This document shows positions 8,209-25,806 of a stretch of DNA of 64,000 bases, piece after piece. The first letter of the stretch is position 1. Each line of letters opens with the position of its first letter. The notes under the pieces are model-generated. The model was not told the DNA's origin and made no database searches. It saw only the letters and a program-made list of their open reading frames with translations. A program made the position numbers and the translations under genes. Source of the DNA: Gammaproteobacteria bacterium (GTDB lineage: Bacteria; Pseudomonadota; Gammaproteobacteria; Burkholderiales; Rhodocyclaceae); the NCBI GenBank assembly GCA_029289235.1, contig JARFTZ010000046.1:248001-312000 (forward strand), written 5' to 3'.

Positions 8209-8652
8209 TCAGGCTTGCTTGAGAAGCAACCGCAGTTGATTCGACTGATCCGGCTTGTCCACCAGATCGGCGAGGGAATACTCGTCCAGCGTCTGATACA
8301 GCGACTCAAAGGCGCGCACAAGAATCGGCGCCAATCGGCAGGCGGGCCTGATCTTGCATCCACACGGCTCGTCGGACAGGCACTCGACGATGGCGCTGTT
8401 GCCTTCGCTGGCACTCACGACCTGCCCCAAGCGGATCTCGGAGGGCGCATGCCGGAGTCGGATGCCGCCGCCCTTTCCACGGAGCGACTCGATAACCCCC
8501 GTGCGCGCCAGGTGATGCACGACCTTCATCAGGTGGTTCTGCGAAATACCGTAGGCATTGGCAATTTCGGGAATCGTTGCCAACCGCTCCCGCTCGACCG
8601 CGAGATACATCAACACACGCAGCGTGTAATCGGAAAAAGTGGTTAACTTCAT
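8209..8652 (-). CDS. nsrR: Rrf2-family NO-responsive repressor NsrR
   Basis: 147 aa. Rrf2 winged helix at the N-terminus (MKLTTFSDYTLRVLMYLA, recognition region NHLMKVVHHLARTGVIESLR) and a Cys cluster at residues 91, 97, 99 and 105 (VECLSDEPCGCKIRPAC), matching the three conserved [Fe-S] cysteines of NsrR plus one extra. NsrR represses NO-detoxification genes until NO attacks its cluster. Two 23-bp operator-like sequences lie between this gene and the divergent DUF3079 gene, so autoregulation is likely. Confidence 0.92.
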   Translation of the reverse strand: MKLTTFSDYTLRVLMYLAVERERLATIPEIANAYGISQNHLMKVVHHLARTGVIESLRGKGGGIRLRHAPSEIRLGQVVSASEGNSAIVECLSDEPCGCKIRPACRLAPILVRAFESLYQTLDEYSLADLVDKPDQSNQLRLLLKQA

Positions 8653-8672
8653 GGCCTCGGCAGCACAACAGT

Positions 8673-8695
8673 AAGATGCATTCGAAATATTGCTT
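8673..8695. promoter_or_regulatory. NsrR-like operator 1 (nsrR/DUF3079 intergenic)
   Basis: A 23-bp 11-1-11 element. The left half AAGATGCATTC matches the NsrR half-site AANATGCATTT except for the last base. The right half AAATATTGCTT keeps AAAT and the terminal TT. Its last six bases are the -35 box of the rightward promoter. Confidence 0.7.
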
Positions 8696-8718
8696 TACGT
8701 CGGCAGCGATATTATCAT
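8690..8718 (+). promoter_or_regulatory. Sigma-70-like promoter for DUF3079 (and perhaps narXL)
   Basis: TTGCTT at 8690-8695, a 17-bp spacer and TATCAT at 8713-8718, predicting transcription start near 8725. The same layout recurs upstream of the DUF59-nnrS operon. Confidence 0.65.
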
Positions 8719-8719
8719 A

Positions 8720-8742
8720 AAGATGCAGATGAAAAACATCTT
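8720..8742. promoter_or_regulatory. NsrR-like operator 2 (nsrR/DUF3079 intergenic)
   Basis: A 23-bp 11-1-11 element: AAGATGCAGAT, G, AAAAACATCTT. Each half matches the NsrR half-site at about 9 of 11 positions. It covers the predicted transcription start, where a bound repressor would block RNA polymerase. Confidence 0.75.
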
Positions 8743-8749
8743 TACAACA

Positions 8750-8768
8750 TGATCGATCCATTCGATCA
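8750..8768. promoter_or_regulatory. 7-5-7 inverted repeat in the DUF3079 leader
   Basis: TGATCGA, five bases, then TCGATCA: a perfect inverted repeat in the predicted 5' leader of DUF3079. Not a canonical FNR site because the spacing is wrong. Function unknown. Confidence 0.35.
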
Positions 8769-8803
8769 AAAGCTGGTTTGAGGAAAAGGAGACATTGTCG
8801 AGA

Positions 8804-9019
8804 ATGGCGAAGAAGTTTCCCTTGCACCCCAAGCACCCGGAGCGGATTTGCTGGGGATGTGACAAGTACTGCGCGGCGGATGCGATGGGCTGCGGCAATG
8901 GTTCAGACCGGACTCAGCACCCCGCTGAACTGCTCGGAGATGATTGGCTGGACTATGGCGACTGGGGAATCGACACGGATGGCGCAACCGCGAACGCGGT
9001 TTCCCCGACGGACAAATAG
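8804..9019 (+). CDS. DUF3079 small cysteine-rich protein
   Basis: 71 aa. The ATG at 8804 is preceded by the purine-rich AGGAAAAGGAG; a TTG at 8795 is too close to that site. The core ICWGCDKYCAADAMGCG carries four Cys in the pattern C-x2-C-x3-C-x6-C, followed by an acidic LGDDWLDYGDWG stretch, typical of DUF3079. The Cys arrangement suggests a metal or Fe-S site (inference). Promoter position between two NsrR-like operators places it in the NO response. It ends 64 bases before narX and may be co-transcribed with it. Confidence 0.8.
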   Translation: MAKKFPLHPKHPERICWGCDKYCAADAMGCGNGSDRTQHPAELLGDDWLDYGDWGIDTDGATANAVSPTDK

Positions 9020-9083
9020 GGATTGCTTGTCGAGGTGGCGAACATGACGAATCCTCGCTCAATGTCTCTTGATCGGCCCTGAA

Positions 9084-10952
9084 ATGCGGAAAACGCAATG
9101 GAGTCTCGGCGCCAAGCTGGCCATGCTGGGGGCTCCGTTCCTGGTGCTCGTGGTGATCTCGACAACGGCAATGCTGTGGATGTCCTGGCAGCTCGACGGC
9201 GGCGCCGCTGCGGTCAACGAGGCCGGACGCATGCGCATGCAGGCTTATCGCATGGCGCTGTCAGCCAACCTCGGTGCACAGGACGACCTGCCTGATCAGA
9301 TCGATACCTTCGGGCGCAGCATGTCGCTACTGCTCGACGGCGACCCTGCCCGCCCTCTTGTCGTCCCGTGGGACGACAACGTGCGGAGCCGTTTTGCGGC
9401 CGTTCAGCAGCGCTGGCGGAGCTTCCGTTCATTGATCGAGAAAGATTCCGGCCAGGTGCGTGATCTTCGAACGGCCACGGATGAGTTCGTCGCCAGCATC
9501 GATGCACTGGTTGTCGGCATCGAGACCCACCTGGCTCGCCAGACCTCCACATTGCACTTTCTGCAGCTGTCGGCAATGATTCTTGCGCTGGTCGTCACGG
9601 CGCTCCTGATTGCCACCGGGTACGTTTTTGTCCTGAAGCCGGTCGGGAAGCTGGCAAGGGCAATCGGTCGCATTCAGGGCGGAGATTTCGACGCCCGGGT
9701 CAATCACACAAGCTCGGACGAATTCGGGACACTGGCCGGCGGATTCAACGGCATGGCCGAGAATCTCCAGTCCATGTATCGCCACCTCGAACACAAGGTT
9801 GCCGAGAAGACGTCAGAACTGGAAGAGAAACGCGAGCGTCTCGAAGGTCTCTACGAGGTAACCAGTCTGGTGGCGAATTCCACGGCGCTGAACGATCTCG
9901 CACAGGGATTCACGAAGATCATCGGACGCATCGCCCGCGCGGACGGAGTCGCCCTGCGCTGGTCCGACCGGAACAACCAGCGCTTCCTGATGCTGGCCTC
10001 GCAGGGCTTGCCGCAATCCCTGCTCGATGCGGAACAATGCCTCGACCGTGGAGCCTGCCATTGCAGCGACATTGCTGAAGATCCCGGCCTGCGCGTCATT
10101 CGCTTCCACGACGAGTCCAGGCCGGAAAACCTGAGCTGCGCCAACGCCGGATTCAAGACGGTGATCAACATCCCGGTCCGTCTCCACGAGCGGATCATGG
10201 GCGAGGTAGACCTGTTTTTCTGTGCCAAGGTGAAGCCCTCGCCCGCGTTATGCTCGCTGCTTGAAGCCCTCGGCAACCACCTCGCCAGCGCGATGGAAAA
10301 CCTGCGCCTCAACGCGCTGGAGAAAGAAGCCGCCGTCTCCCAGGAGCGCTTGCATCTGGCGCGAGAACTCCATGACTCGATCGCGCAATCGCTCGCCTTC
10401 CTGAAAATCCAGGTGCAATTGCTGCGTGACGCGATTCAATCGAATGATGCGGAACACATCCAGGAGGCGCTCGATGAAATCGATGCCGGCGTCAAGGAGA
10501 GCTACGGCGATGTACGAGAACTGCTGACGCATTTCCGTACCCGGACCAACTCCGAGGATATCGAATCAGCGTTCGCCATGACCTTGCAGAAATTCGAACA
10601 CCAGAGCCGGGTGAAGACGACGCTCTCCATTCAAAGTCACGGCATCCCGCTTTCGCCGGACCGGCAGATACAGGTCCTGCATATCGTGCAGGAAGCCTTG
10701 TCCAATGTGCGCAAGCACGCGAATGCCTCGCGGGTGACCCTGAATGTCGAGCAACATCCCCTGTGGCGCGTGGAGGTGCGTGACGACGGCGTCGGTTTCG
10801 ACGCGCACGGAAACAAGTTCGATGAATCTCATGTAGGCTTGCGCATCATGAACGAACGAGCCCAGCGGATCGGTGCGAACCTGGAAATCACTTCCACGCC
10901 CGGGGAAGGCACCTCGGTCGTGCTGACGCTTCCCTCTGCGGGGAACGCATGA
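9084..10952 (+). CDS. narX: Nitrate/nitrite sensor histidine kinase NarX
   Basis: 622 aa. Membrane helix about 10-32, a periplasmic domain carrying the P-box (NEAGRMRMQAYRMA) that senses nitrate and nitrite, second helix about 155-180, HAMP, coiled coil, a GAF-like module with a Cys cluster (EQCLDRGACHCSD), the HisKA_3 motif LARELHDSIAQSLAFLK with the phospho-His, and a C-terminal HATPase (VRDDGVGFD, GLRIMNERA). Start chosen at ATG 9084; a TTG upstream at 9069 is less likely. It overlaps narL by 4 bases. Confidence 0.94.
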   Translation: MRKTQWSLGAKLAMLGAPFLVLVVISTTAMLWMSWQLDGGAAAVNEAGRMRMQAYRMALSANLGAQDDLPDQIDTFGRSMSLLLDGDPARPLVVPWDDNVRSRFAAVQQRWRSFRSLIEKDSGQVRDLRTATDEFVASIDALVVGIETHLARQTSTLHFLQLSAMILALVVTALLIATGYVFVLKPVGKLARAIGRIQGGDFDARVNHTSSDEFGTLAGGFNGMAENLQSMYRHLEHKVAEKTSELEEKRERLEGLYEVTSLVANSTALNDLAQGFTKIIGRIARADGVALRWSDRNNQRFLMLASQGLPQSLLDAEQCLDRGACHCSDIAEDPGLRVIRFHDESRPENLSCANAGFKTVINIPVRLHERIMGEVDLFFCAKVKPSPALCSLLEALGNHLASAMENLRLNALEKEAAVSQERLHLARELHDSIAQSLAFLKIQVQLLRDAIQSNDAEHIQEALDEIDAGVKESYGDVRELLTHFRTRTNSEDIESAFAMTLQKFEHQSRVKTTLSIQSHGIPLSPDRQIQVLHIVQEALSNVRKHANASRVTLNVEQHPLWRVEVRDDGVGFDAHGNKFDESHVGLRIMNERAQRIGANLEITSTPGEGTSVVLTLPSAGNA

Positions 10953-11677
10953 GCACGTCCCTGCCCTCCTCGTGCCCTCCTTACCCTCCTTGCCCGATCC
11001 GGCTACTGGTGATCGACGATCACACGCTTTTCCGGCGCGGTTTGACGGCACTGCTGGTTCGTGACTCCCGGCTGAAAGTGGTCGGTGACGCGGCCGATGC
11101 GAGCGAGGGGCTGCGGCGGGCGCAGGAGTTGCAGCCGGACATCATTTTGCTCGACAACCATCTGCCTGGCGTCACGGGCATTGACGCACTTCCCGCATTG
11201 CGCGAAGCGGCGCCGGATTCCCGCATCCTCATGCTGACCGTCAGCGAGGACGAGGACGATCTGGGCGCAGCCTTGCGCGGCGGCGCCGTGGGCTATCTGC
11301 TGAAAACCGCGGAAGGCGATACCCTGATCGAAGCCATTCTCCGGGCGATGAACGGCGAAAGCGTCATCGCGACGGAAATGACCAGCAAGCTTGTCGCCGC
11401 GTATCGGGGCGCCACCGTTGCCGGCGGACAGAGCGCGCCCGCATCGGTCGAAGACACGTCGCCGAGCGCGGTTGGCGAGGCCCTCGCCTCCCTCTCGCCA
11501 CGCGAGAGGGAGGTCCTGCGCGGCATTGCCCGTGGCGCGAGCAACAAGGAAATCGCGCGTGAACACGGCATCGCGGAAACCACGGTCAAGATCCACGTCC
11601 AGCACATCCTGCGCAAACTCGCTGTGAGTACCCGCGTCCAGGCCGCCGTGATCGCCTCGGGCAACGGACTGATCTGA
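10949..11677 (+). CDS. narL: Nitrate/nitrite response regulator NarL
   Basis: 242 aa. A receiver domain ([14 protein letters not shown]; phospho-acceptor Asp in [28 protein letters not shown]) is joined to a LuxR-type HTH ([37 protein letters not shown]). The N-terminus has an unusual Pro/Cys-rich extension of about 15 residues before the receiver. Partner of NarX; expected to activate narKGHJI just downstream. Confidence 0.94.
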
Positions 11678-11700
11678 TTCTCAGCCCGCGGCTGACCCTC

Positions 11701-11718
11701 ATAGTTCGTTCGAACTAT
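11701..11718. promoter_or_regulatory. Inverted repeat with 7-2-7 NarL-type spacing upstream of narK
   Basis: ATAGTTCG, TT, CGAACTAT: a perfect 8-bp inverted repeat with a 2-base spacer. Trimmed by one base it is a 7-2-7 pair of heptamers, the spacing NarL uses, although the heptamer TAGTTCG differs from the enteric consensus TACYYMT. A further TAGTTC half-site sits near 11736. No FNR box was seen in this gap. Confidence 0.5.
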
Positions 11719-11831
11719 ACGGCGACCGCCTGACATAGTTCTTCGGATGCGCCGCGATGCCTCTTCGGAGGGATACCGCATCCCCCCGCCCCCACCTACA
11801 GTGCTGCCATGCAAGAAAAGGGAGGGGGAAA

Positions 11832-13289
11832 ATGACGATCACCTCGGGCCATGCAAGCGGCTCATCGCGTCCGGGCACGCTGCTGCATGTCTGGACACCG
11901 GAAGACAAGGCCTTCTGGGAGCGCGAAGGGCAGGCCATCGCCAAGCTCAATCTGTGGATTTCGGTGCCGTGCCTGTTCCTGGCCTTCGCCATCTGGCAAT
12001 TGTGGAGCGTCGTGGCCGTCAGTCTGCCGCAACTGGGCTTCACTTACACGACGGACCAGCTCTTCTGGCTGGCCGCTGCTCCAGCGCTCTCCGGCGCAAC
12101 GCTGCGAATCTTCTATTCGTTCATGATCCCGCTGGTGGGCGGACGGCGCTGGACGGCCATTTCAACGGCCTCGCTGCTGATCCCCGCGATCGGCATCGGC
12201 TACGCGGTGCAGAATCCGGCAACCAGCTTTTCCACGATGCTGGTGCTGGCGCTGCTCTGCGGCTTCGGGGGCGGCAACTTCAGCTCCAGCATGGCCAACA
12301 TCAGTTTCTTCTTTCCCAAGGCGCGGAAAGGGTCCGCGTTGGGCGTCAATGCCGGACTGGGCAACCTCGGCGTCTCCGTCGTGCAGTTTCTGACCCCGAT
12401 GGTCGTTACCGTCGGTGTCTTCGGCGTGTTCGCCGGGGCGCCGCAGACCGCCACCGGAGCCGATGGCGCGACGACGCACCTCTGGATGCAGAACGCGGCC
12501 TTCGTCTGGGTGCCGTGGATTGCCCTGGCCACGGTCCTGGCCTGGCTGTTCATGAACGACATCGCCGACGCCAAGGCCTCCTTCGCCGCCCAGGCGGCGA
12601 TCTTCAAGCGCAAGCACAACTGGCTCATGTGCTGGCTTTACCTGGGCACCTTCGGTTCGTTCATCGGCTTTGCCGCCGGATTCCCCCTCCTCATCAAGAG
12701 CCAGTTTCCCGACATCAACCCGCTGGCCTACGCCTGGCTTGGGCCGCTCGTCGGCGCGCTGATCCGTCCGGTGGGAGGCTGGCTGGCCGACAAGCTCGGC
12801 GGCGCCTCGGTCACCCTGTGGAACTTTGTCGCCATGGCGCTCGCGGTCGTCGGCGTCCTGTACTTCCTGCCCAAGGGGACCGGCGGACTGGCCCTGCCCT
12901 TCGGCCCCGCTGAAGGCAGCTTTACCGGCTTCTTCCTGATGTTCCTCGTCCTCTTCCTGACCACGGGCATCGGCAACGGATCGACCTTCCGCATGATTCC
13001 GGTGATCTTCATGAACCTGAAGCTCCGCGAACTCGCAAGCTCCAGCGACAGCGACCATAACCGTGCGCGAGCGCTCCGGGAAGGCAACACGGAGGGCGCG
13101 GCGGCGCTTGGCTTTGCCGGTGCGCTGGGCGCCTACGGCGGCTTCTTCATCCCGAAAAGCTACGGCAGCTCGATTGCCGCCACCGGCGGACCGGAACTGG
13201 CGCTGTGGCTATTCGCCATCTTCTATGCCGCATGTATCGCGATCACCTGGTGGCACTACGCCCGCAGACACGCCGAGATGCCCTGCTGA
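11832..13289 (+). CDS. narK: Nitrate/nitrite transporter NarK (MFS)
   Basis: 485 aa from the ATG at 11832, preceded by GGGAGGGGG. Twelve predicted membrane helices. Both nitrate signature motifs are present: [19 protein letters not shown] in the fifth-helix region and [17 protein letters not shown] in the eleventh-helix region. A conserved Arg follows the second helix ([10 protein letters not shown]). It is a single, unfused NarK protein rather than the NarK1-NarK2 fusion found in some proteobacteria. First gene of the nar structural operon. Confidence 0.94.
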
Positions 13290-13328
13290 CGGAACGCGCT
13301 GCCAACCCCAAGGAACAAGGAGGGCCTG

Positions 13329-16300
13329 ATGAGCCATTTTCTCGATCGACTGAACTATTTTATCCAGCCCAGGGAATCGTTTTCCGGCGGCCACGGCGTC
13401 ACCAACGGCGAGGATCGCACCTGGGAGGACGCCTACCGCGACCGCTGGGCACACGACAAGATCGTGCGCTCCACGCACGGGGTGAACTGCACGGGCTCCT
13501 GCTCCTGGAAGATCTACGTCAAGGGCGGCATCGTCACCTGGGAGACGCAGCAGACCGACTATCCGCGCACCCGCTGGGACATGCCCAATCACGAACCGCG
13601 CGGTTGCGCCCGCGGCGCCTCGTACTCGTGGTACCTCTACAGCGCCAACCGGGTGAAATACCCGATGGTGCGCGGCCGCCTGCTCAAGCTCTGGCGCGAG
13701 GCGCGGCTGTCGCACGACCCGGTGGACGCCTGGGCGGCGATCGTCAGCGACGAGAGCAAGCGCAAGGACTACCAGAGCGTGCGCGGGCTGGGCGGCTTCG
13801 TGCGTGCGAGCTGGGACGAAGTCAACGAGATCGTCGCCGCGGCCAACGTGCATACGATCAAGAAACACGGCCCCGACCGCGTCATCGGCTTCTCGCCGAT
13901 CCCGGCGATGTCGATGGTCTCCTACGCCGCCGGCAGCCGCTACCTCTCCCTGATCGGCGGCGTCTGCATGAGCTTCTACGACTGGTACTGCGACCTGCCG
14001 CCGTCCAGCCCGCAGATCTGGGGCGAGCAGACGGACGTGCCGGAATCGGCCGACTGGTACAACTCCAGCTTCATCATCGCCTGGGGCTCGAATGTGCCGC
14101 AGACGCGCACGCCGGACGCGCACTTCTTCACCGAAGTCCGCTACAAGGGCACCAAGACCGTGGCGATAACGCCCGACTATTCCGAAGTCGCGAAGCTCGC
14201 CGACATCTGGATGAAGCCCAAGCAGGGGACCGACGCCGCTGTCGCCATGGCGATGGGGCACGTCATCCTCAAGGAGTTTTATTTCCCGGACGGCGACAAG
14301 CCAAGGAGCGCCTACTTCGAGGACTACGTTCGCCGCTACACCGACATGCCGATGCTGGTGACGCTCAAGGAGCACACCTTGCCCGACGGCGAAACGGTGG
14401 TGGTACCCGACCGCTATCTGCGCGCTTCCGACTTCGACGGCGCCTTGGGCGCAAGCAACAACCCCGACTGGAAGACGGTGGCCTTCGACGAGGACGACCG
14501 GATCACCGTGCCGAACGGCTCGATCGGCTTCCGCTGGGGGGCGGACGGCCGCGCCGACGCGGGTCGCTGGAATCTGGAGGCCAGGGACGCGCGCAGCGAC
14601 GATGAGGTCAAGTTTCGGCTGTCGCTGCTCGAAGGTGCGAATCCGAGCGACGACACCGCCCGGGTCGCCTTCCCGTATTTTGGCGGCATCAAGAACGAGT
14701 ACTTCCCGAACAACGCCGAAGGAGCGGCCGGGCGGAACGTTCTCGTGCGCACGGTTCCCGTGCGGCGGATCGCACTGGGCGAACAGGGAAAAACGGCCCT
14801 GGTGGCCACCGTCTTCGATCTGCAGGTGGCCAACTACGGCATCGCCCGCGGGATTCCCGGCGAACTGGCCGCCCGCGACTTCGACGACGACACGCCCTAC
14901 ACGCCGGCCTGGCAGGAGCGCATCACCGGCACGCCGCGCGAGCAGATCATCGCCGTGGCCCGCCAGTTCGCGGACAACGCCGACAAGACGCAGGGCCGCT
15001 CGATGGTCATCATCGGCGCGGCGATGAACCACTGGTACCACTCGGACATGAACTACCGCGGGGTCATCAACATGCTGATGCTGTGTGGCTGCATCGGCAA
15101 GAGCGGAGGCGGCTGGGCGCACTACGTCGGGCAGGAGAAGCTGCGCCCGCAAACCGGCTGGACGGCGCTGGCCTTCGCGCTCGACTGGATCCGCCCGCCG
15201 CGCCAGATGAATTCGACCAGTTTCTTCTACGCCCACTCCGACCAGTGGCGCTACGAGAAGCTCGGGATCGAGGAAGTGCTGTCGCCGCTGGCCGACCCGG
15301 CGGACTTCGGCGGCAGCATGATCGACTACAACGTGCGCGCCGAGCGCATGGGCTGGCTCCCCTCGGCGCCCCAGCTGCAGACCAATCCGCTGAAAATCGT
15401 CCGTGATGCAGTCGCCGCCGGCGCCGATCCGAAGGACTACACGGTCAAGTGCCTGAAGGACGGTTCGCTGCGGATGAGCTGCGAAGATCCGGACCACCCC
15501 GACAACTGGCCGCGCAACATGTTCGTCTGGCGCTCCAACATCCTCGGCTCCAGCGGCAAAGGCCACGAGTATTTCCTCAAGCATCTGCTGGGCACGACCC
15601 ATGGCCTGCAGGGCAAGGATCTGGGCGCTGACGAGGCAAAGCCGACGGAGGTGGTGTGGCACGAGACGGCGCCCGAAGGGAAGCTTGATCTGCTGGTGAC
15701 GCTGGATTTCCGGATGAGCACCACCTGTCTTTATTCCGACATCGTGCTGCCGACGGCGAGCTGGTACGAGAAGAACGACCTCAACACCAGCGACATGCAT
15801 CCGTTCATCCACCCGCTGTCGACGGCGGTCGATCCGGCCTGGCAGTCGCGCAGCGACTGGGAAATCTACAAGGGCTTCGCCCGGAAATTCAGCGAGGTCT
15901 GTGTCGGCCATCTGGGCGTCGAACGCGAGATCGTCCTGTCGCCCCTGATGCACGACACGCCGGCCGAACTGGCGCAACCCGTGGGCGTGAAGGACTGGAA
16001 ACGCGGCGAGACCGACCTGATTCCGGGCAAGACGGCGCCGAACATCGCCGTCGTCGAACGTGACTATCCGAACGTGTTCAAGCGCTTCACCGCGCTCGGT
16101 CCGTTGATGAACACGGCGGGCAACGGCGGCAAGGGCATCGCCTGGAACACGCAGGCCGAAGTGCGGCAACTGGGCGAGCTCAACGGGGTCGTCGGCGACG
16201 AGGGTGCGACCTGCGGCATGCCACGCATCGACAGCGATATCGACGCCTGCGAGGTCATCCTGCAGCTCGCGCCGGAGACCAACGGCCACGTCGCCGTCAA

Positions 16301-17138
16301 GGCCTGGGAGGCGCTCGGCAAGCAGACGGGCCGCGAGCACACGCATCTGGCCCTGTACCGCGAAGACGAGAAAATCCGCTTCCGCGACATCCAGGCCCAG
16401 CCGCGCAAGATCATCAGTTCGCCAACCTGGAGCGGCATCGAGTCCGAGACGGTCTCCTACAACGCCGGCTACACCAACGTGCATGAGCTGATTCCGTGGC
16501 GCACCCTGACCGGCCGCCAGCAGTTCTACCTGGATCATCCGTGGATGCTCGCCTTCGGCGAAGGCTTCTCCAGCTACCGTCCGCCGGTGGACCTGAAGAC
16601 GACGGCCGAGATCCACAACATCAAGCCCAACGGCCACCCGGAGATCGCCCTCAACTTCATCACGCCGCACCAGAAGTGGGGCATCCACTCGACCTACACG
16701 GACAACCTGATGATGCTCACGCTCAATCGCGGCGGGCCGGTCGTCTGGTTGAGCGAGGACGACGCGAAACGCGCGGGAATCGTCGATAACGACTGGGTCG
16801 AGCTGTTCAACATCAACGGCGCCATCTCGGCCCGGGCGGTCGTCAGCCAGCGGGTCACTCCGGGCATGGTGATGATGTACCACGCCCAGGAAAAGACCAT
16901 CAACACGCCGGGTTCGGAAATCACCGGCATCCGCGGCGGCATCCACAACTCGGTGACGCGCATCGTCCTGAAGCCGACCCACATGATCGGCGGCTACGCG
17001 CAGTTCAGCTACGGCTTCAACTACTACGGAACGATCGGCACCAACCGCGACGAGTTCGTCGTCGTGCGCAAGATGGACCAGGTGGACTGGCTGGATGACG
17101 AAGCCGCTCCGGTTTCCGGCACAACGGCCGCTGCGTAA
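13329..17138 (+). CDS. narG: Respiratory nitrate reductase alpha subunit NarG
   Basis: 1269 aa, normal length for the family. The FS0 [4Fe-4S] ligands are His50, Cys54, Cys58 and Cys93 (STHGVNCTGSCSW; PRGCARGAS). The Mo-bis-MGD region includes FYDWYCDLPPSSPQ around residues 216-229, whose Asp ligates Mo in the family. There is no Tat-type twin-arginine leader. The subunit sits on the cytoplasmic side, reducing nitrate to nitrite with electrons from NarH and NarI. It starts 39 bases after narK. Confidence 0.97.
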   Translation: MSHFLDRLNYFIQPRESFSGGHGVTNGEDRTWEDAYRDRWAHDKIVRSTHGVNCTGSCSWKIYVKGGIVTWETQQTDYPRTRWDMPNHEPRGCARGASYSWYLYSANRVKYPMVRGRLLKLWREARLSHDPVDAWAAIVSDESKRKDYQSVRGLGGFVRASWDEVNEIVAAANVHTIKKHGPDRVIGFSPIPAMSMVSYAAGSRYLSLIGGVCMSFYDWYCDLPPSSPQIWGEQTDVPESADWYNSSFIIAWGSNVPQTRTPDAHFFTEVRYKGTKTVAITPDYSEVAKLADIWMKPKQGTDAAVAMAMGHVILKEFYFPDGDKPRSAYFEDYVRRYTDMPMLVTLKEHTLPDGETVVVPDRYLRASDFDGALGASNNPDWKTVAFDEDDRITVPNGSIGFRWGADGRADAGRWNLEARDARSDDEVKFRLSLLEGANPSDDTARVAFPYFGGIKNEYFPNNAEGAAGRNVLVRTVPVRRIALGEQGKTALVATVFDLQVANYGIARGIPGELAARDFDDDTPYTPAWQERITGTPREQIIAVARQFADNADKTQGRSMVIIGAAMNHWYHSDMNYRGVINMLMLCGCIGKSGGGWAHYVGQEKLRPQTGWTALAFALDWIRPPRQMNSTSFFYAHSDQWRYEKLGIEEVLSPLADPADFGGSMIDYNVRAERMGWLPSAPQLQTNPLKIVRDAVAAGADPKDYTVKCLKDGSLRMSCEDPDHPDNWPRNMFVWRSNILGSSGKGHEYFLKHLLGTTHGLQGKDLGADEAKPTEVVWHETAPEGKLDLLVTLDFRMSTTCLYSDIVLPTASWYEKNDLNTSDMHPFIHPLSTAVDPAWQSRSDWEIYKGFARKFSEVCVGHLGVEREIVLSPLMHDTPAELAQPVGVKDWKRGETDLIPGKTAPNIAVVERDYPNVFKRFTALGPLMNTAGNGGKGIAWNTQAEVRQLGELNGVVGDEGATCGMPRIDSDIDACEVILQLAPETNGHVAVKAWEALGKQTGREHTHLALYREDEKIRFRDIQAQPRKIISSPTWSGIESETVSYNAGYTNVHELIPWRTLTGRQQFYLDHPWMLAFGEGFSSYRPPVDLKTTAEIHNIKPNGHPEIALNFITPHQKWGIHSTYTDNLMMLTLNRGGPVVWLSEDDAKRAGIVDNDWVELFNINGAISARAVVSQRVTPGMVMMYHAQEKTINTPGSEITGIRGGIHNSVTRIVLKPTHMIGGYAQFSYGFNYYGTIGTNRDEFVVVRKMDQVDWLDDEAAPVSGTTAAA

Positions 17139-17149
17139 GGAGAAGATTC

Positions 17150-18682
17150 ATGAAAATTCGCGCCCAAATCGGCATGGTGCTGAACCTGGACAAGTGCATC
17201 GGCTGCCACACCTGCTCGGTGACCTGCAAGAACGTCTGGACCAGCCGTCCCGGCATGGAGTACGCCTGGTTCAACAACGTCGAAACCAAGCCTGGCATCG
17301 GCTATCCCAAGGAATGGGAGAACCAGGACAAATGGAACGGCGGCTGGGTCCGCAAGGCCGACGGCAGGATCGAGCCGCGCCAGGGGAACAAGTGGAAGCT
17401 GCTGATGCGCATCTTCGCCAACCCGAACCTGCCCGAAATCGACGACTACTACGAACCGTTCACCTTCGACTACGACCATTTGCAATCGGCGCCCGAATCG
17501 AAGGCCACGCCGACCGCACGACCACGCAGCCTGATCACCGGCAAGCGCATGGAAAAGATCGTCTGGGGCCCGAACTGGGAGGAAATCCTCGGCGGCGAGT
17601 TTTCCAAGCGCTCGAAGGACAAGAACTTCGACCAGTTCGACCAAGTGCAGAAGGAGATGTACGGCCAGTTTGAGAATACCTTCATGATGTACCTGCCGCG
17701 CCTGTGCGAGCACTGCCTCAACCCGACCTGCGTCGCCAGCTGTCCGTCCGGCTCGATCTACAAGCGCGAGGAAGACGGCATCGTGCTGATCGACCAGGAC
17801 AAGTGCCGCGGCTGGCGCATGTGCGTTTCCGGTTGCCCGTACAAGAAGATCTACTACAACTGGAAGTCGGGCAAGGCCGAGAAATGCATCTTCTGCTACC
17901 CGCGCATCGAGGCCGGGCAGCCGACGGTGTGTTCGGAAACCTGTGTCGGACGCATCCGTTATCTCGGCGTGCTGCTTTATGACGCCGACCGCATCGAGGA
18001 AGCGGCCAGCGTCACCCGGGACAGCGACCTGTACCAGGCGCAGCTCGACATCTTCCTCGACCCCAACGACCCGAAGGTCATCGCACAGGCGCGCGCCGAC
18101 GGCATTCCCGACGCCTGGATGGAGGCGGCGCGCAAGAGCCCTGTCTACAAGATGGCCGTCGACTGGAAGGTCGCCCTGCCCTTGCACCCCGAATACCGGA
18201 CGCTGCCGATGGTCTGGTATGTGCCGCCGCTCTCGCCGATCAGCGCTGCCGCCAATGCCGGCCAGCTCGGCGTCAACGGCGAGATTCCCGACGTCAAGCA
18301 GTTGCGCATCCCGGTCAAGTACCTCGCCAACCTGCTGACGGCGGGCGACGTGGAACCCGTCGAGCGGGCGCTGGAACGCATGCTGGCGATGCGCGCCTTC
18401 CAGCGCGCAAAACACGTCGATGGCGTGGTCAACACCACTGTCCTGGAGCAAGTCGGCCTGAGCACCGCCGAGGTCGAAGAGATGTACCAGATCATGGCGA
18501 TCGCGAATTACGAGGATCGATTCGTGATTCCGACCGCGCACCGGGAGTATGCGGAAAACGCCTTCGACCTGCGCGGCGGCTGCGGCTTCTCGTTCGGCAA
18601 CGGCTGCTCGGAAGGCAGCAACGAGGCCAGCCTGTTCGGCGGCACAAAGCGCCGGACCATCCCGATCAAGGTGGAGGTATAG
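17150..18682 (+). CDS. narH: Respiratory nitrate reductase beta subunit NarH
   Basis: 510 aa. Four cysteine clusters for three [4Fe-4S] and one [3Fe-4S] centres: CIGCHTCSVTC at the N-terminus, CEHCLNPTCVASCPSG, CRGWRMCVSGCPYKK (Trp in place of a Cys gives the [3Fe-4S] cluster) and CIFCYPRIEAGQPTVC. It carries electrons from the NarI haems to NarG. It begins 11 bases after narG. Confidence 0.97.
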   Translation: MKIRAQIGMVLNLDKCIGCHTCSVTCKNVWTSRPGMEYAWFNNVETKPGIGYPKEWENQDKWNGGWVRKADGRIEPRQGNKWKLLMRIFANPNLPEIDDYYEPFTFDYDHLQSAPESKATPTARPRSLITGKRMEKIVWGPNWEEILGGEFSKRSKDKNFDQFDQVQKEMYGQFENTFMMYLPRLCEHCLNPTCVASCPSGSIYKREEDGIVLIDQDKCRGWRMCVSGCPYKKIYYNWKSGKAEKCIFCYPRIEAGQPTVCSETCVGRIRYLGVLLYDADRIEEAASVTRDSDLYQAQLDIFLDPNDPKVIAQARADGIPDAWMEAARKSPVYKMAVDWKVALPLHPEYRTLPMVWYVPPLSPISAAANAGQLGVNGEIPDVKQLRIPVKYLANLLTAGDVEPVERALERMLAMRAFQRAKHVDGVVNTTVLEQVGLSTAEVEEMYQIMAIANYEDRFVIPTAHREYAENAFDLRGGCGFSFGNGCSEGSNEASLFGGTKRRTIPIKVEV

Positions 18683-18684
18683 CC

Positions 18685-19401
18685 ATGGTGCCCGCGGACA
18701 TCTCGCTGAGCCTGCGCCTTCTGGCCCGCCTGCTCACCTATCCCGACGCGGCCCTGCGAGGCGATCTCGCCGACCTGCGCGCCACCCTCGCGGCCGGCGT
18801 GAGCATGCCGGCCGCCCGCCGGGCAGAACTGGACGCGCTCGCCGCCACGCTGGAGAACGGAGACCCGATCGAAAACGAAGCGGAGTACGTGCGAACCTTC
18901 GACCAGGGCCGCTCGACGTCGCTGCACCTGTTCGAGCACGTGCATGGCGATTCGCGCGACCGCGGCCCGGCGATGATCGACCTGATCCAGACCTACGAGC
19001 AGGCCGGCCTGCACCTCGCCCCGGGCGAGTTACCCGATTACCTGCCGGCGGTCCTGGAGTTCGCCTCGACCCAGCCGCCCAGGGAAGCCCGCGCCTTCCT
19101 TGGCGAAATCGCCCATGTCGTCAAGGCCATTCATGGCGCCTTGCGGCAACGCAAGAGCGCCTACGCCTGCGTGCTGGCCACGCTGCTGGAACTGAGCGGC
19201 GAAGCGCCGGCGACGACCGCGAACATGCCGGTCGCGCCGGACGAGTCTCTGGACGCCAGTTGGGAAGAACCGCCCGCATTCGGCGGTTGTTCGACCAAAG
19301 GGCAAGCCGGCGGCCAAGGGGTCCAGCCGGTTCATTTCGTCGGTACCGGCGCCCCTGCCCGGAAAACGACGGTATCCGCCTCTACGGGAGCAATTCGATG
19401 A
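18685..19401 (+). CDS. narJ: Nitrate reductase assembly chaperone NarJ
   Basis: 238 aa, TorD/NarJ-type all-helical protein (SLSLRLLARLLTYPD; DLIQTYEQAGLHLAPGELPDYLPAVLEF). It is needed for Mo-cofactor insertion into NarG and is not part of the final enzyme. It starts 2 bases after narH and overlaps narI by 4 bases. The C-terminal 50 residues are low-complexity and poorly conserved, as is usual. Confidence 0.94.
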   Translation: MVPADISLSLRLLARLLTYPDAALRGDLADLRATLAAGVSMPAARRAELDALAATLENGDPIENEAEYVRTFDQGRSTSLHLFEHVHGDSRDRGPAMIDLIQTYEQAGLHLAPGELPDYLPAVLEFASTQPPREARAFLGEIAHVVKAIHGALRQRKSAYACVLATLLELSGEAPATTANMPVAPDESLDASWEEPPAFGGCSTKGQAGGQGVQPVHFVGTGAPARKTTVSASTGAIR

Positions 19402-20132
19402 ACGCACTCGACACCTTTTTGTTCGGGGTTTATCCCTACATCTGCCTGAGCATCTTTCTCCTGGGCAGCCTGATCCGTTTCGACCGCGACCAGTACACCT
19501 GGAAGAGCGACTCGTCGCAATTGCTGCGCGCCGGCCAGCTCAAGCTCGGCAGCAACCTTTTCCATATCGGCGTGCTCTTCCTCTTCGGCGGGCATTTCTT
19601 CGGCATGTTGACACCGCACTTCGTTTACCAAGGCTTCATCGACGCCGGGACCAAGCAAGTGCTGGCCATGACGGCCGGCGGCATCGCCGGACTGCTGGCG
19701 TTCGCCGGGGTGACGATTCTGCTGCACCGCCGCCTGAGCGATCCGCGCATCCGGAACAACTCCAAGCCTAGCGACATCGCCGTGCTTGTCCTGCTGTGGA
19801 TTCAGCTCGTGCTGGGCCTCGCCAGTGTCCCGATTTCCGCGCAGCACCTCGACGGCAGCGTGATGCTGCTCCTGGCCGAATGGGCGCAACGCATCGTGAC
19901 CTTCCGCAGCGGCGCGTCGGAACTGATTACCGGCGTCAGCTGGGTCTTCAAGGCGCACATCGTGCTCGGCATGACCATCTTCCTGGTCTTTCCCTTCACC
20001 CGGCTCGCGCACGTCTGGAGCGGATTCGGGACGGTGGCCTACCTTGTTCGCCCCTATCAGGTGGTTCGCTCCCGCCGCTTGAATGTTCCGTCTAAAGAAG
20101 CCGCCACGGCACCGACCAAGTCGGGCGCATGA
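19398..20132 (+). CDS. narI: Respiratory nitrate reductase gamma subunit NarI (cytochrome b)
   Basis: 244 aa from the ATG at 19398, overlapping the narJ stop. Five membrane helices are expected, with His residues for two b haems (NLFHIGVLFLFGGHFFG and the C-terminal KAHIVLGMTIFLVFPFTRLAH). It oxidises quinol at the periplasmic side and passes electrons to NarH. Confidence 0.96.
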   Translation: MNALDTFLFGVYPYICLSIFLLGSLIRFDRDQYTWKSDSSQLLRAGQLKLGSNLFHIGVLFLFGGHFFGMLTPHFVYQGFIDAGTKQVLAMTAGGIAGLLAFAGVTILLHRRLSDPRIRNNSKPSDIAVLVLLWIQLVLGLASVPISAQHLDGSVMLLLAEWAQRIVTFRSGASELITGVSWVFKAHIVLGMTIFLVFPFTRLAHVWSGFGTVAYLVRPYQVVRSRRLNVPSKEAATAPTKSGA

Positions 20133-20149
20133 GAGAAAGGAAGGACGCG

Positions 20150-20941
20150 ATGAACCACGCAAGCTGCGCTGCGACACCAATTGCCCGGGTTAACGGCATT
20201 GCGCTCAACAGGGACGACGAAACCTTGGGAGCCGCTGAATTGCGGCAGCGCGCCTGTGCCGAGTTGTTGCGCCAGGCCGCGATTGCCCGGGGGACATTGC
20301 CTCGCGACGATGCTCCGACCGCTGACGGAATCCTCAGCGAGGACGCCATGCGGGCCGTGGAAGCCTTGCTTGACGAAAACCTGGTCATTCCCGAACCGTC
20401 GGAGGAAGAGTGCCGTCGCCACTACGAAGCACGTAGCGCCAGCTACGCAACCGGAGAGCGCGCGAAGGTGCGGCACATCCTGTTCGCCGTAACTCCCGGG
20501 GTAGACCTCGCCGCCCTACGCCACCTGGCGGAAGCAACGCTACTGGATGTGCGCTGTATCGACCACAGTGGGCGTGAAGACAAGTTTGCCGAAGCCGCGC
20601 GCGCGCAGTCGAATTGCCCGAGCGGGGCGGACGGTGGTCATCTGGGCTGGCTGACTTCGGCCGAGTGCGCGCCGGAGTTTGCCAGGGAGGTCTTCGGACA
20701 TCGCGAAATCGGTGTGCTGCCACGCCTCGTTCATACCCGCTTCGGTCTGCACGTCATCGAAGTCCTGCAACGCGAACCGGGGAAGACGCGCTCTTTCGAG
20801 GAAGTCCGGGGCGCCGTTGCGGCCGCCTTGCAACAGCAGACTTACGTCACCGCCTTGCGTCAGTACCTGAGCCAGTTGGCCGGACAGGCCGAACTGTGTG
20901 GCGTTGACCTCGAAGCGGCCGACACGCCGCTCGTTCAATAA
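20150..20941 (+). CDS. PpiC/NifM-type parvulin peptidyl-prolyl isomerase of the nar operon
   Basis: 263 aa from the ATG at 20150, which follows the ribosome site AGAAAGGAAGGA; an ATG at 20129 overlaps the narI stop but lacks its own site. The PPIC core runs from about residue 105 to 215 (AKVRHILFAV, GGHLGWLTSAECAPEF, TRFGLHVIEVL). There is no signal peptide, so it should act in the cytoplasm. A parvulin at the end of narGHJI operons is known in several proteobacteria and probably helps nitrate reductase maturation. Confidence 0.87.
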   Translation: MNHASCAATPIARVNGIALNRDDETLGAAELRQRACAELLRQAAIARGTLPRDDAPTADGILSEDAMRAVEALLDENLVIPEPSEEECRRHYEARSASYATGERAKVRHILFAVTPGVDLAALRHLAEATLLDVRCIDHSGREDKFAEAARAQSNCPSGADGGHLGWLTSAECAPEFAREVFGHREIGVLPRLVHTRFGLHVIEVLQREPGKTRSFEEVRGAVAAALQQQTYVTALRQYLSQLAGQAELCGVDLEAADTPLVQ

Positions 20942-20961
20942 CCATTTTCAAGGGGGAAGCA

Positions 20962-21147
20962 ATGGAACAACAAACAGAAGAACGTCGCCCGGTGATGCGG
21001 TCAGCCTTGCACAAAGCCTGCGCGCAATGGACGCCGGTTGTTCAAAAAGCGGCTGTTGCCACGGAAAAAGCCCCGCTGGACAGCATCGCCTTGCCAGGCT
21101 TACCCACGAGCCGCGACAAGCTTGAAGTGACAGAATCCGAAATCTAG
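20962..21147 (+). CDS. Small unknown protein at the end of the nar operon
   Basis: 61 aa, 20 bases after the parvulin gene, with a strong ribosome site (AAGGGGGAAGC) correctly spaced before the ATG. It is charged and without a membrane segment (MEQQTEERRPVMRSALHKAC...). I do not recognise a family. The ribosome site and operon position support expression. It converges on the chemoreceptor gene, 27 bases away. Confidence 0.6.
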   Translation: MEQQTEERRPVMRSALHKACAQWTPVVQKAAVATEKAPLDSIALPGLPTSRDKLEVTESEI

Positions 21148-21174
21148 GGCTTTCTGGCTCGCGGGATGCACGAC

Positions 21175-22284
21175 CTATCCGCCAACCCGTTCGGTGCCGG
21201 TCGCCAGAACACGCTCCATGCCGGCCATTACCGTCAGGTTCGCTTCCTCCATGCGTGTCAATGCATCCAGTGCACCGGTAAAATCGTTGTTGTGGAAGCA
21301 TTCCACGGCACGGCGGGCTTGATCGTGCACCGCCCGATGCGGCACTTCCATTTCCCGATAACCGGGCAGGCGAGAGTATTCGGCCTTGCCTTCGCCGACG
21401 TAATACCAGCGGCCCAGGCGGCACTGTGTCTCGTCCGGCAAATCGCCCGGCTGCAGGTCGGAAAGGCCGAGCAGCACCTTATAGACTTCGAGCTTCAGAG
21501 TCAGCTCTTCGATGTTCGCCAGTTCGGCATTGGCCAGGTGGGACGAGGAGGAAATGCTCTGTTGCATCTGCTGCGACAGTGCCAGCAGATGCTGCATGCT
21601 GCGCATCGCTCCCTCGCTTTCCGCGCTGTGGCTGGCCGCATCGCCGGCGCCGACATCCATGATGGACTTGGCGTGGCCGGTTTCTTGCTGAATGCGCCCT
21701 ACCAGCGCATTGATTTCCGTCGTTGCCTTGGCAGTGCGTTCCGCAAGCTTGCGCACCTCGTCCGCCACCACGGCGAAGCCGCGGCCGGCCTCGCCGGCCC
21801 TGGCCGCCTCGATGGCCGCGTTGAGCGCAAGGAGGTTGGTCTGTTCGGCAATCTCCTTGATGAGCTGCACGATTCCGCCGATTTCCCCAGCGCTGCGCGA
21901 CAAGCCCTCGACGCTGTCGCCTGCGACGCTGATGCGCTCGAACATGGCATGCAGGTTACCGGCGATCTTCTCGAAGGCGGCCCGGTTGGCGTCCGATTCG
22001 CTGGCAGCGGTGAGTACCATCGCGGCGTCGTTGCTCAGTTGTTCGGACAAGCCCGAAAAGGACAGGCGGAAGCCGGAGAGCGATTCGCCGAAGCGGGGCA
22101 GGTTGCCGACGACGCCATCGAGCAGCATTTGGCGCATGGCGCCCTGCTGCGCCTGGGTTTCCAGCTGCGCGAGACGTTCCCGGGTCGCGGCAAGTTCGCC
22201 CAGCAGGGCATCGGTACGCGCCTTGAGCAGTGCGTTTTCCGCCTGCGCGGCTGCCAGCGCTTGTTTTGTTTTCTTGCCAAACAT
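21175..22284 (-). CDS. Soluble methyl-accepting chemotaxis protein with C-terminal CZB domain
   Basis: 369 aa with no membrane segment. A coiled coil (about 8-50) leads into the MCP signalling hairpin (about 80-205), whose tip is [21 protein letters not shown] (residues 145-165 region). The C-terminal CZB domain (about 255-355) has QCRLGRW (Cys288) and VPHRAVH (His316, His320). The first Zn-ligand His of typical CZB domains appears to be Glu here ([17 protein letters not shown], residues 259-260). A perfect FNR box and a well-placed -10 lie upstream, so it is probably made under oxygen limitation alongside nitrate respiration. Confidence 0.9.
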
Positions 22285-22318
22285 GATGCCTCCTGCGGGC
22301 AGTCGATAAAAGTTGAGT

Positions 22319-22360
22319 AATTTACTCGGAGAATATCCAATTTCTTTTGATACAGATCAA
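22319..22360 (-). promoter_or_regulatory. Class II FNR/ANR-type promoter of the CZB chemoreceptor
   Basis: TTGAT-ACAG-ATCAA at 22347-22360 is a perfect match to the FNR consensus TTGAT-N4-ATCAA. With the site centred at -41.5, transcription would start near 22312, and a -10-like TAAATT lies at 22324-22319 on the minus strand, exactly where expected. Confidence 0.8.
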
Positions 22361-22600
22361 ACGGCCAGATACCAGTGGCTGCGCGTCGAACAAGGCGCAG
22401 GACGAAGAGGTCGCATTGCAATGTTCCCACGTTTTCTATCCACCTCATCAAGACCACCATCCAGCTCCTGCGCGGAGATCGCGGCCGAGTCACTCGCGCC
22501 TTCCTGGCGATTTTTTTGCCGTACAGCCAAGCCACCTTCCCGTTGCCGAGAGAAACGGGGACAGTTTCAACAGCCTGCCAAAAAAACTCCCGAGACTTAT

Positions 22601-22623
22601 AAGATGTATAACTTATATTGCTT
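22601..22623. promoter_or_regulatory. NsrR-like operator 1 of the DUF59-nnrS operon
   Basis: 23-bp element: AAGATGTATAA, C, TTATATTGCTT. The left half matches the NsrR half-site apart from its last two bases. The right half is degenerate and ends in TTGCTT, which is also the -35 box, as in the element at 8673-8695. Confidence 0.65.
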
Positions 22624-22646
22624 TAATTTCAAGGCAGCGTTATTAT
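22618..22646 (+). promoter_or_regulatory. Sigma-70-like promoter of the DUF59-nnrS operon
   Basis: TTGCTT at 22618-22623, a 17-bp spacer and TATTAT at 22641-22646. Predicted start of transcription near 22653, inside the second operator. Confidence 0.7.
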
Positions 22647-22647
22647 T

Positions 22648-22670
22648 AACATGTATAACATATACTTCTT
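22648..22670. promoter_or_regulatory. NsrR-like operator 2 of the DUF59-nnrS operon
   Basis: 23-bp element: AACATGTATAA, C, ATATACTTCTT. About 18 of 22 informative positions agree with the 11-1-11 NsrR consensus (allowing T or C at position 7). It starts 47 bp after operator 1, the same offset as upstream of DUF3079. Confidence 0.7.
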
Positions 22671-22679
22671 ATAAACATC

Positions 22680-23039
22680 GTGACTACCAGACCCGAAGAC
22701 AGAGCAGGCGCAAGCGACATCCTTCCGTCCCCCGTGGTGAGTGCTGATCGTGTCCGCGCTCTTCTGCGACAGGTCATCGACCCCGAGGTCGGCGTGAATA
22801 TCGTCGATCTCGGTCTCGTTTACCGCGTCGACGCAAGCGCTACCGGCGTCCGGGTCGAAATGACGATGACGTCGCCGGCGTGCCCGCTGGGCGAGATGAT
22901 CGTCGACGAGGCGCGTGCGGTACTTGCCGCCGACCTTCCGGACAGCGGCGAGCCGGATATCTCGTTGGTCTGGAATCCGCCCTGGGAGCCCTCGATGATG
23001 AGCAAACGCGCCAAGGAGACCCTCGGCTGGTCGGAGTGA
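22680..23039 (+). CDS. MIP18/DUF59 metal-sulfur cluster assembly protein
   Basis: 119 aa from a GTG at 22680. DUF59 core: VRALLRQVIDPEVGVNIVDLGLVYRVD and TMTSPACPLGEMIVDEAR, with the conserved Cys. Members help Fe-S cluster assembly or repair. There is no clear ribosome site, and in-frame GTGs near 22734-22737 are alternatives, so the start is uncertain. First gene of an operon with DUF2249, a membrane protein and nnrS; under NsrR-type operators it may repair Fe-S centres damaged by NO (inference). Confidence 0.85.
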   Translation: MTTRPEDRAGASDILPSPVVSADRVRALLRQVIDPEVGVNIVDLGLVYRVDASATGVRVEMTMTSPACPLGEMIVDEARAVLAADLPDSGEPDISLVWNPPWEPSMMSKRAKETLGWSE

Positions 23040-23108: not shown

Positions 23109-23393
23109 ATGACTACCCCGCAAGCTTTCAAGACGATCGTCGATGTCCGCACCATCGTGCCGCGCGAGCGGCATCCGCTGATCTTCGGCACTTTCGACGG
23201 CCTTCTTCCCGGCGAAGCGCTGTTGCTCGTCAACGATCACGACCCGAAACCGCTGTTCTATCAGTTCCAGGCCGAATCGGCCGGCGAATTCACGTGGGAA
23301 TACGTCGAGAAGGGGCCGGAAGTCTGGCAGGTAAGGATCGGCAAGGTCGGGGAAACCGACCAGCGCGTCGTCGCCAAGGGCTGCAGCCACTAG
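23109..23393 (+). CDS. DUF2249-domain protein
   Basis: 94 aa, single DUF2249 domain (IVDVRTIVPRERHPLIFGTF, GEALLLVNDHDPKPLFYQF, WEYVEKGPEVWQVRIGK). The motif VNDHDPKPL resembles that of SirA/TusA-like folds and may bind a metal or redox group. DUF2249 proteins recur next to DUF59, hemerythrin and nnrS genes in denitrifiers. A ribosome site CAGGAG lies 7 bases before the ATG. Confidence 0.85.
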   Translation: MTTPQAFKTIVDVRTIVPRERHPLIFGTFDGLLPGEALLLVNDHDPKPLFYQFQAESAGEFTWEYVEKGPEVWQVRIGKVGETDQRVVAKGCSH

Positions 23394-23403
23394 ACCACCG
23401 GCC

Positions 23404-24528
23404 ATGAACGATCTTCGCCCGCTCGCCCGCCTGCCGATCCTGGTGCTGGGCATCCTGTCCCTTCTCGGCGGCGTACTCTCGGGACTGGCCCGGCTGGGCT
23501 GGGAGGTTCCGACGATCGCGGCAAACGCCGCGGGCCTGCACGGGGCGTTGATGATCTCGGCCTTTTTTGGCACGGTGATCAGCCTGGAACGCGCGGTCGC
23601 GCTCGGACGCGCCTGGGCGTATCTGGCGCCCGCGGCCGCCGGCGCCGGCGGCGTGGCCTTGCTCGGCGGCGCGCCGCTGGCCGTCTCCCAGGGGCTCGCG
23701 CTCGTCGCCTCGGCCGTCATGCTTGCCGCCAATGTTCAGGTAGTGCGCCGCCTGCTGGCGCCGTTCACCGTGGTGCTGGCCAGCGGAGCACTGTGCTGGG
23801 CAGTCGGCAACCTTGTCTGGCTGGTGTCCGGCGCGACGAGCGTGGCGACACCGTGGTGGTTCGCCTTCCTGATCCTGACCATCGGCGGCGAACGCCTGGA
23901 ATTGAGCCGCTTCATTCCGACGCCGCGGGCAGCGCAGCGGGTCTTTTTCGCCATCGTCGGCGCGTTGTTGGCCGGCGCGGCACTGTCTTTGTTTGACGAG
24001 CGTCATGGGCTGGCGCTGTTCTCCGTCGCGTTGTTATCGCTGGCGGCCTGGCTGCTGGCCTTCGACATCGCCTCGCGCAACGTCCACCGCGATGGCCTGC
24101 CGCGCTTCATCGCCCTGTGCCTGCTGACCGGTTATGTCTGGCTGGGAGTCGCCGGCATCCTCGGCATCGGCGGCGGCTTCGAGCTGGGCCATCTCTGGCG
24201 CGACAGCACCCTGCACGCCGTCGGCCTGGGCTTCGTATTCTCGATGGTGCTCGGCCATGCGCCGATCATCTTTCCGGCGGTGGCGCGGGTGAAGATTCCG
24301 TATCACATTTCCTTCTACCTCCCGCTGCTGGCCCTGCACGCGACGCTGCTGCTGCGCGTTCTGGGCGGGATCGGCGGCGATTTTTCCCTGCGACGTATCG
24401 GCGGGTTGGCCAACGCCTATGCGCTGCTGGCGTTCTTCGCGGTCCTGGTGATCGGCGTCCTGCGCGGCAAGGCGGCCGCCCGGCTCGATTCGCGGCAATG
24501 CAGTACTTCGCCAAAGGCAAACTTATGA
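23404..24528 (+). CDS. Polytopic membrane protein of the nnrS operon
   Basis: 374 aa with about eleven hydrophobic segments and no large soluble domain. Motifs LHGALMISAFFGTVISLERAV near the N-terminus and HAVGLGFVFSMVLGHAPIIFPA in the C-terminal half contain membrane-embedded His residues, reminiscent of NnrS and haem-copper proteins, but it is not a clear NnrS. It overlaps nnrS by 4 bases. Possibly a distant NnrS relative that binds haem or copper (inference). Confidence 0.75.
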   Translation: MNDLRPLARLPILVLGILSLLGGVLSGLARLGWEVPTIAANAAGLHGALMISAFFGTVISLERAVALGRAWAYLAPAAAGAGGVALLGGAPLAVSQGLALVASAVMLAANVQVVRRLLAPFTVVLASGALCWAVGNLVWLVSGATSVATPWWFAFLILTIGGERLELSRFIPTPRAAQRVFFAIVGALLAGAALSLFDERHGLALFSVALLSLAAWLLAFDIASRNVHRDGLPRFIALCLLTGYVWLGVAGILGIGGGFELGHLWRDSTLHAVGLGFVFSMVLGHAPIIFPAVARVKIPYHISFYLPLLALHATLLLRVLGGIGGDFSLRRIGGLANAYALLAFFAVLVIGVLRGKAAARLDSRQCSTSPKANL

Positions 24529-25792: not shown

Positions 25793-25806
25793 TTAATCTG
25801 AATCAA
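25793..25806. promoter_or_regulatory. FNR/DNR-type box upstream of norC
   Basis: TTAAT-CTGA-ATCAA, one mismatch from TTGAT-N4-ATCAA. Centred at 25799.5, a -41.5 arrangement predicts transcription from about 25841, with CATAAC at 25827-25832 as a weak -10. Suggests activation of norCB by an FNR/DNR/NnrR-type regulator. Confidence 0.6.

Follow-up and report, generated by a model that had tools for sequence, protein, structure and literature searches.

A conserved paired-operator promoter of NsrR type in Rhodocyclaceae with an operator half-site that doubles as the -35 box

The 64,000-nucleotide stretch of Rhodocyclaceae DNA analysed here (the window) contains two promoters of one layout, in which a promoter core lies between two 23-bp NsrR-type palindromes that start 47 bp apart. 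The layout is that of a conserved paired-operator promoter of nitric oxide (NO) genes, one half-site of which doubles as the -35 box. Both copies are probably controlled by NsrR, which would occlude each of them at two sites and be removed by NO. Module 1 is situated between genes for an NsrR-like regulator and the small protein DUF3079, and module 2 precedes the genes for DUF59, DUF2249, a membrane protein, and NnrS (Table 1).

Table 1 Promoter elements and neighbouring genes of the two modules in the window
Feature	Position	Strand	Sequence	Remarks
nsrR-like gene	8209..8652	-		Rrf2 family, 147 aa; PF02082 E 1.6e-36; divergent from module 1
Op1 of module 1	8673..8695	+	AAGATGCATTCGAAATATTGCTT	centre -41 from predicted start 8725; conserved at nsrR loci
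Putative -35 of module 1	8690..8695	+	TTGCTT	in right half of Op1
-10 box of module 1	8713..8718	+	TATCAT	17-bp spacer after -35
Op2 of module 1	8720..8742	+	AAGATGCAGATGAAAAACATCTT	over predicted start; 0 mismatches to AAGATG-N11-CATCTT
DUF3079 gene	8804..9019	+		small four-cysteine protein, 71 aa from ATG 8804; PF11278 E 3.3e-34
NarX/NarQ-like sensor kinase gene	9069..10952	+		behind DUF3079
CZB chemoreceptor gene	21175..22284	-		CZB zinc-binding domain
Op1 of module 2	22601..22623	+	AAGATGTATAACTTATATTGCTT	
Putative -35 of module 2	22618..22623	+	TTGCTT	in right half of Op1
-10 box of module 2	22641..22646	+	TATTAT	17-bp spacer after -35
Op2 of module 2	22648..22670	+	AACATGTATAACATATACTTCTT	over predicted start 22653
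DUF59 gene	22680..23039	+		FeS_assembly_P; PF01883 E 9.8e-19
DUF2249 gene	23109..23393	+		PF10006 E 1e-31
Membrane protein gene	23404..24528	+		identified by eye; no Pfam match; recurs behind modules
nnrS	24540..25688	+		PF05940 E 4.2e-74; start not refined

Two promoters with one geometry

Module 1 spans positions 8673-8742 of the window and module 2 positions 22601-22670, each with an offset of 47 bp between its operators. A sequence-only reading of this DNA had described two 23-bp NsrR-like operators of 11-1-11 organization 47 bp apart at both loci, with TTGCTT as the last six bases of the upstream operator (Op1) followed by a 17-bp spacer and TATCAT or TATTAT, and this description is exact to the base. 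The downstream operator (Op2) had been placed over the predicted transcription start, which holds at both loci with the start set seven bases past the -10 box, at 8725 in module 1 and 22653 in module 2. The centres of Op1 and Op2 are then at -41 and +7. We take AAGATG to be the letters of the NsrR half-site, in agreement with the motif gATGyAT. The palindromes are 23 bp long, with two 11-bp half-sites of the AAGATG type, as in the published definition of the 11-1-11 operator (PMC3887101). In module 2, Op2 has two mismatches to AAGATG-N11-CATCTT; each Op1 has three, all of which fall in its -35 part.

Two copies of AAGATG-N11-TTGCTT are present in the window, and 100 shuffles yielded none. A scan of the genome for the composite pattern had been proposed, and the Op1/-35/-10 pattern, searched for in the 3.8-Mb genome with up to three mismatches, has its only zero-mismatch copies in the two window modules. 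Two more places match with three mismatches, and the reversed pattern used as a control has no match. The region 8600-22700 has no Rfam match for a structured RNA at gathering scores.

The hexamer TTGCTT agrees with the sigma-70 consensus TTGACA in three of six bases, and a generic sigma-70 scan listed neither of the window promoters. The assignment as promoters is based instead on the conservation of -35- and -10-like elements with a 17-bp spacing in modules that had been retrieved by a layout model.

Conservation of the paired layout

The layout has been looked for at 27 nsrR loci identified through their proteins (L080-L106, with 26 distinct upstream sequences). With free spacing, and a half-site score that was set after the loci had been viewed but was blind to spacing, the best operator pair is offset by 47 bp at 20 loci, by 46 bp at one, and by another distance at two, and four loci have none. 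By comparison, 1080 mononucleotide shuffles yielded a pair at 47 bp in 2 cases and at 46-47 bp in 13. The sequence-only reading had staked its case on orthologous promoters keeping both operators and their 47-bp offset, which the nsrR/DUF59 promoter does at these 20 of 27 loci. At the nsrR loci L100, L103, L105, and L106 from Dechloromonas/Azonexus only a single strong palindrome is present, and L094 has a strong Op2 and a shortened Op1. Because nsrR loci with a single palindrome exist, NsrR control does not depend on the pair.

The second operator was not part of the Op1/-35/-10 search pattern. Nine places match this pattern with at most one mismatch, and in eight of them a second operator lies exactly at +47; the eight include both window modules, and G018 and G027 are identical, G005 and G026 nearly so. 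The ninth place, L045, has no second operator. Among the 20 of 31 listed pattern places that were examined for a second operator (L045 was examined additionally), 11 have Op2 at +47, one of them with four mismatches (L037), L026 has it at +45, and eight have none. A 74-position model (R1), whose training set overlaps the searched genomes and some of whose matches are partial, matches 68 of 249 genomes of the family (E 0.01), representing 30 of 68 genera, and has no match in the other 181. It also matches 28 of 399 genomes of the order (E 0.001), 7 of which are family members. The window and 87 fetched regions, selected mostly from the better model and pattern matches, contain 89 modules. Counted within the allowed range of 40-54 bp, the offset is 47 bp in 76 modules, 45-48 bp in 86, and 41-42 bp in the remaining 3. 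Twelve of the 13 fetched order-level regions from outside the family contain NsrR, and the thirteenth contains DUF59.

The position of the pair next to nsrR raises the question of which gene Op1 serves. Sixty-nine of the 89 modules have NsrR within 600 bp. At most pair-bearing Rhodocyclales nsrR loci examined, about 20 bp separate Op1 from the start of nsrR, as would be expected if Op1 served the autoregulation of nsrR and overlapped the -35 box of the other promoter incidentally. However, 20 modules, window module 2 included, have no nsrR within 600 bp (at L298 it is about 0.7 kb away). They were found with the two-operator model, which included Op1, and they keep an operator-like left half of Op1 (weakest in L274 and L278) and, in 18 of 20 cases, the 47-bp offset. 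Autoregulation as the sole role of Op1 is thus improbable.

Because the model used to gather the 74 distinct modules with a 47-bp offset covers the entire layout, their uniformity is partly by construction; the contrast between their half-sites is stronger evidence. Position 6 of the half-site is G in 63 of 74 modules in the left half of Op1, and in 61 of 74 in both the left and the right half of Op2. By contrast, it is G in none of the 74 in the right half of Op1, where the -35 box needs TTG. At the outer end of this half, two operator bases are fixed in 73 and 74 of the 74 modules. The explanation given earlier for the common deviation of Op1 at the two window loci, that its right half doubles as the -35 box, thus extends to the 74 modules. 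One stretch of DNA appears to serve both the repressor and the sigma factor. The -35 hexamer is TTGCTT in 59 modules and TTGATT in 13, with TTG kept in 73 of 74, and positions 1, 2, and 6 of the -10 box are T, A, and T in all 74. Fifty-six of the 74 modules carry an extended -10 TG, which accompanies a poor -10 hexamer more often than a good one (Fisher p 0.0018, and p 0.012 with a second grouping, both uncorrected for kinship).

These elements bear on whether NsrR could activate the promoters from Op1 and repress them from Op2 at +7. The centre of Op1, at -41 from the predicted start, is in the class-II position, the -35 box is poor by consensus, and activation of LEE promoters by NsrR has been reported for E. 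coli O157:H7 (PMC4432287). However, TTG is conserved in 73 of 74 modules, the spacer measures 17 bp, and the -10 box is extended in most of them, so that the promoter should be able to work without an activator; moreover, Op1 covers the -35 box itself. In addition, the repressor regulon predicted for NsrR includes nnrS and norB (PMC1274295). Activation from Op1 is highly improbable.

The regulator and the genes behind the modules

The nsrR-like gene begins 20 bp from Op1 of module 1, an adjacency absent from the sequence-only reading. Its product belongs to the Rrf2 family (PF02082, 125.8 bits against a cut-off of 30). It scores below the cut-off of the NCBIfam NsrR equivalog model NF008240 (124.3 bits against 182) and also below that of the RirA model (118.7 bits against 193); its score for RirA is nearly as high as that for NsrR. 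The closest solved structure is that of S. coelicolor NsrR (5n07, E 4.1e-22). The protein contains cysteines 91, 97, 99, and 105, enough for the three putative ligands of a cluster; three of them, 91, 97, and 105, have cysteine counterparts in the alignment with 5n07. It is called NsrR-like here on account of its context and the type of operator rather than a model match. The half-site changes from AAGATG to AAGC(A/T)G in some loci, notably in the Sulfuritalea group, and co-evolution of NsrR with it was considered but is not supported: the stretch around ISENHLMKVV, compared by eye, is much alike with both half-site types.

Most of the 20 modules with no nsrR within 600 bp stand before genes of NO type. 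Products encoded behind these modules include DUF59, DUF2249, NnrS, hemerythrin, a cytochrome c-NorB pair, a long NorB-like protein, or a CZB chemoreceptor, named by tblastn with the genes of the window unless identified by eye. At L256, L274, L283, and L284, modules lie directly before a ferredoxin-NADP-reductase-like protein, recognized by eye. Relatives of the CZB chemoreceptor adjoin or follow modules or nsrR at L235, L244, L253, L269, L276, L279, and L291. Between the chemoreceptor gene of the window and module 2 there is a perfect box, TTGATACAGATCAA at 22347-22360, which we take to be of the FNR/DNR type and which probably belongs to the chemoreceptor promoter. A second box, TTAATCTGAATCAA at 25793-25806, has one mismatch to this type and immediately precedes a cytochrome c gene (25870), with a COX1-family, norB-like gene also behind it; it suggests separate control of the cytochrome c and norB-like genes.

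Within its own genome only the two window pairs stand out. A search for single operators with up to three mismatches gave 41 matches against a background of 35. A further good palindrome with two mismatches, C60:88837, is inside a long open frame and has no partner operator at 47 bp. We infer that the clear targets are nsrR with the divergent DUF3079 gene, perhaps reaching into narXL, and the DUF59-DUF2249-membrane protein-nnrS genes; weaker NsrR targets are possible. The gap between DUF3079 and the sensor kinase gene is 49-64 bp, no terminator-like site was found in 8600-9200, and the kinase gene is followed by narL-like, narK, narG, narH, and narJ genes. DUF3079 and the kinase are possibly co-transcribed, and NsrR might reach narXL by read-through from the DUF3079 promoter. 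A reading that joins a two-state switch, a -35 box rewritten for sigma factor and NsrR, and NO control of narXL behind DUF3079 is very doubtful as a whole.

DUF3079 is present in 103 of 249 genomes of the family, and the CWGCDxYC motif and a fourth cysteine occur in the rows of an alignment that comprises 40 of the 58 distinct proteins. It had been assigned to the same NO regulon as nnrS on the strength of its promoter. That the operator pair and its offset are conserved before this gene did not hold up: among 72 gene rows, which come from overlapping regions and contain some genes twice, the pair precedes DUF3079 in the window only. A strong single operator precedes it in G006 (two rows), and the next best score, 12.7, is near chance. 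The idea that NsrR generally controls DUF3079 through the promoter of this gene was therefore rejected. The wider link of DUF3079 to NO genes is one of position. In module-bearing genomes, 10 of 47 DUF3079 loci, the window included, are within 10 kb of a module, compared with about 0.3 expected, and the other 37 are not. For this count, second-strand matches at the same places were dropped from the module list, and six DUF3079 rows were set aside, none from a module-bearing genome (two split pieces in G203, one with an inner stop in G099, and three below the cut-off). Several of the module-near DUF3079 genes adjoin hemerythrin, nnrS, or nsrR genes.

The two window promoters could be alike through recent copying of a single promoter. 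In the close relatives L161 and L162, which share the flanking gene order of the window, one module lies between nsrR and DUF59, whereas the window has one at each end of about 14 kb containing DUF3079, the nar genes, a PpiC-type rotamase, and the chemoreceptor. Module 1 keeps the spacing of the nsrR side (20 bp, as in L080/L081) and module 2 keeps the sequence of the DUF59 side. These arrangements are read most economically as a doubling of the promoter on entry of the block of about 14 kb. As the reason for the likeness, however, recent copying is unlikely, given that the spacers and operator centres of the two modules differ and that the geometry is common to 76 of the 89 modules. Copying may explain the presence of two modules, but not the persistence of the layout.

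Proposed double occlusion and its relation to known NsrR promoters

The preferred reading, double occlusion by NsrR, starts from the observed sequence, geometry, conservation, and context of the promoters, and extends them by a predicted binding of NsrR, direction of control, and response to NO. It draws on the known chemistry of NsrR and its 23-bp site (PMC2577008, PMC4432287, and PMC3887101). Without NO, dimers of holo-NsrR would occupy Op1, over the -35 box with a centre near -41, and Op2, over the start with a centre near +7. Since the promoter core lies between the operators, RNA polymerase would be shut out twice. NO would attack the Fe-S cluster, NsrR would depart, and the sigma-70 promoter would fire with no activator needed. 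The right half of Op1 may represent a compromise in which the -35 box sets the inner TTG and the operator the outer TT. The 47-bp spacing, about 4.5 helical turns, would correspond to one promoter core fitted between the two sites. Because the spacing follows from fitting the core, the dimers more likely occlude the promoter independently at the two sites than touch each other side by side. The paired-operator repression switch proposed earlier is backed by the NsrR-type operators and the adjoining NsrR-like gene, but 47 bp by itself is no evidence of cooperation. Helical phasing as the reason for the spacing is not favoured, given the 4.5 turns and the occurrence of offsets of 45, 46, and 48 bp.

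Earlier work has described NsrR sites together with predicted targets, as well as tandem sites at Bacillus hmp. The NsrR regulon of beta- and gammaproteobacteria described by Rodionov et al. in 2005 (PMC1274295) has operators of the type gATGyAT-N5-ATrCATc and the predicted targets nnrS, norB, and COG4309, as here; however, the parts consulted describe neither a fixed 47-bp pair nor a -35 box inside an operator, and the terms 'two NsrR', 'DUF', and 'Dechloromonas' are absent from its text. Tandem predicted NsrR sites over a promoter occur at Bacillus subtilis hmp (PMC1274295), and 18 promoters with two predicted NsrR sites have been listed in S. coelicolor (PMC2577008), although the sections consulted mention neither a fixed geometry nor a shared half-site for these cases; later work on S. 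coelicolor reports no more than three NsrR target genes (PMC4432287). The alphaproteobacterial nsrR loci L115, L120, and L139 likewise have two strong NsrR-type palindromes upstream of nsrR, but these start 37 or 38 bp apart instead of 47. COG4309 is presumably equivalent to DUF2249. No description of the 47-bp paired layout was found in the openly accessible literature consulted on NsrR and on the neighbouring protein families. For DUF3079 one paper was found, in the portion seen of which it is listed as having unknown function.

Probable NO-responsive promoters in Rhodocyclaceae, a family with many denitrifiers of wastewater, can be searched for with this layout as a rule exact to the base. 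A 2019 study of 'Ca. Accumulibacter' names NsrR among the regulators that might act there (PMC6446978). The stretch apparently shared by repressor and sigma factor is kept across many genera, and the layout ties the uncharacterised DUF3079, DUF59, CZB chemoreceptor, and membrane protein to NO defence in a manner that is directly testable.
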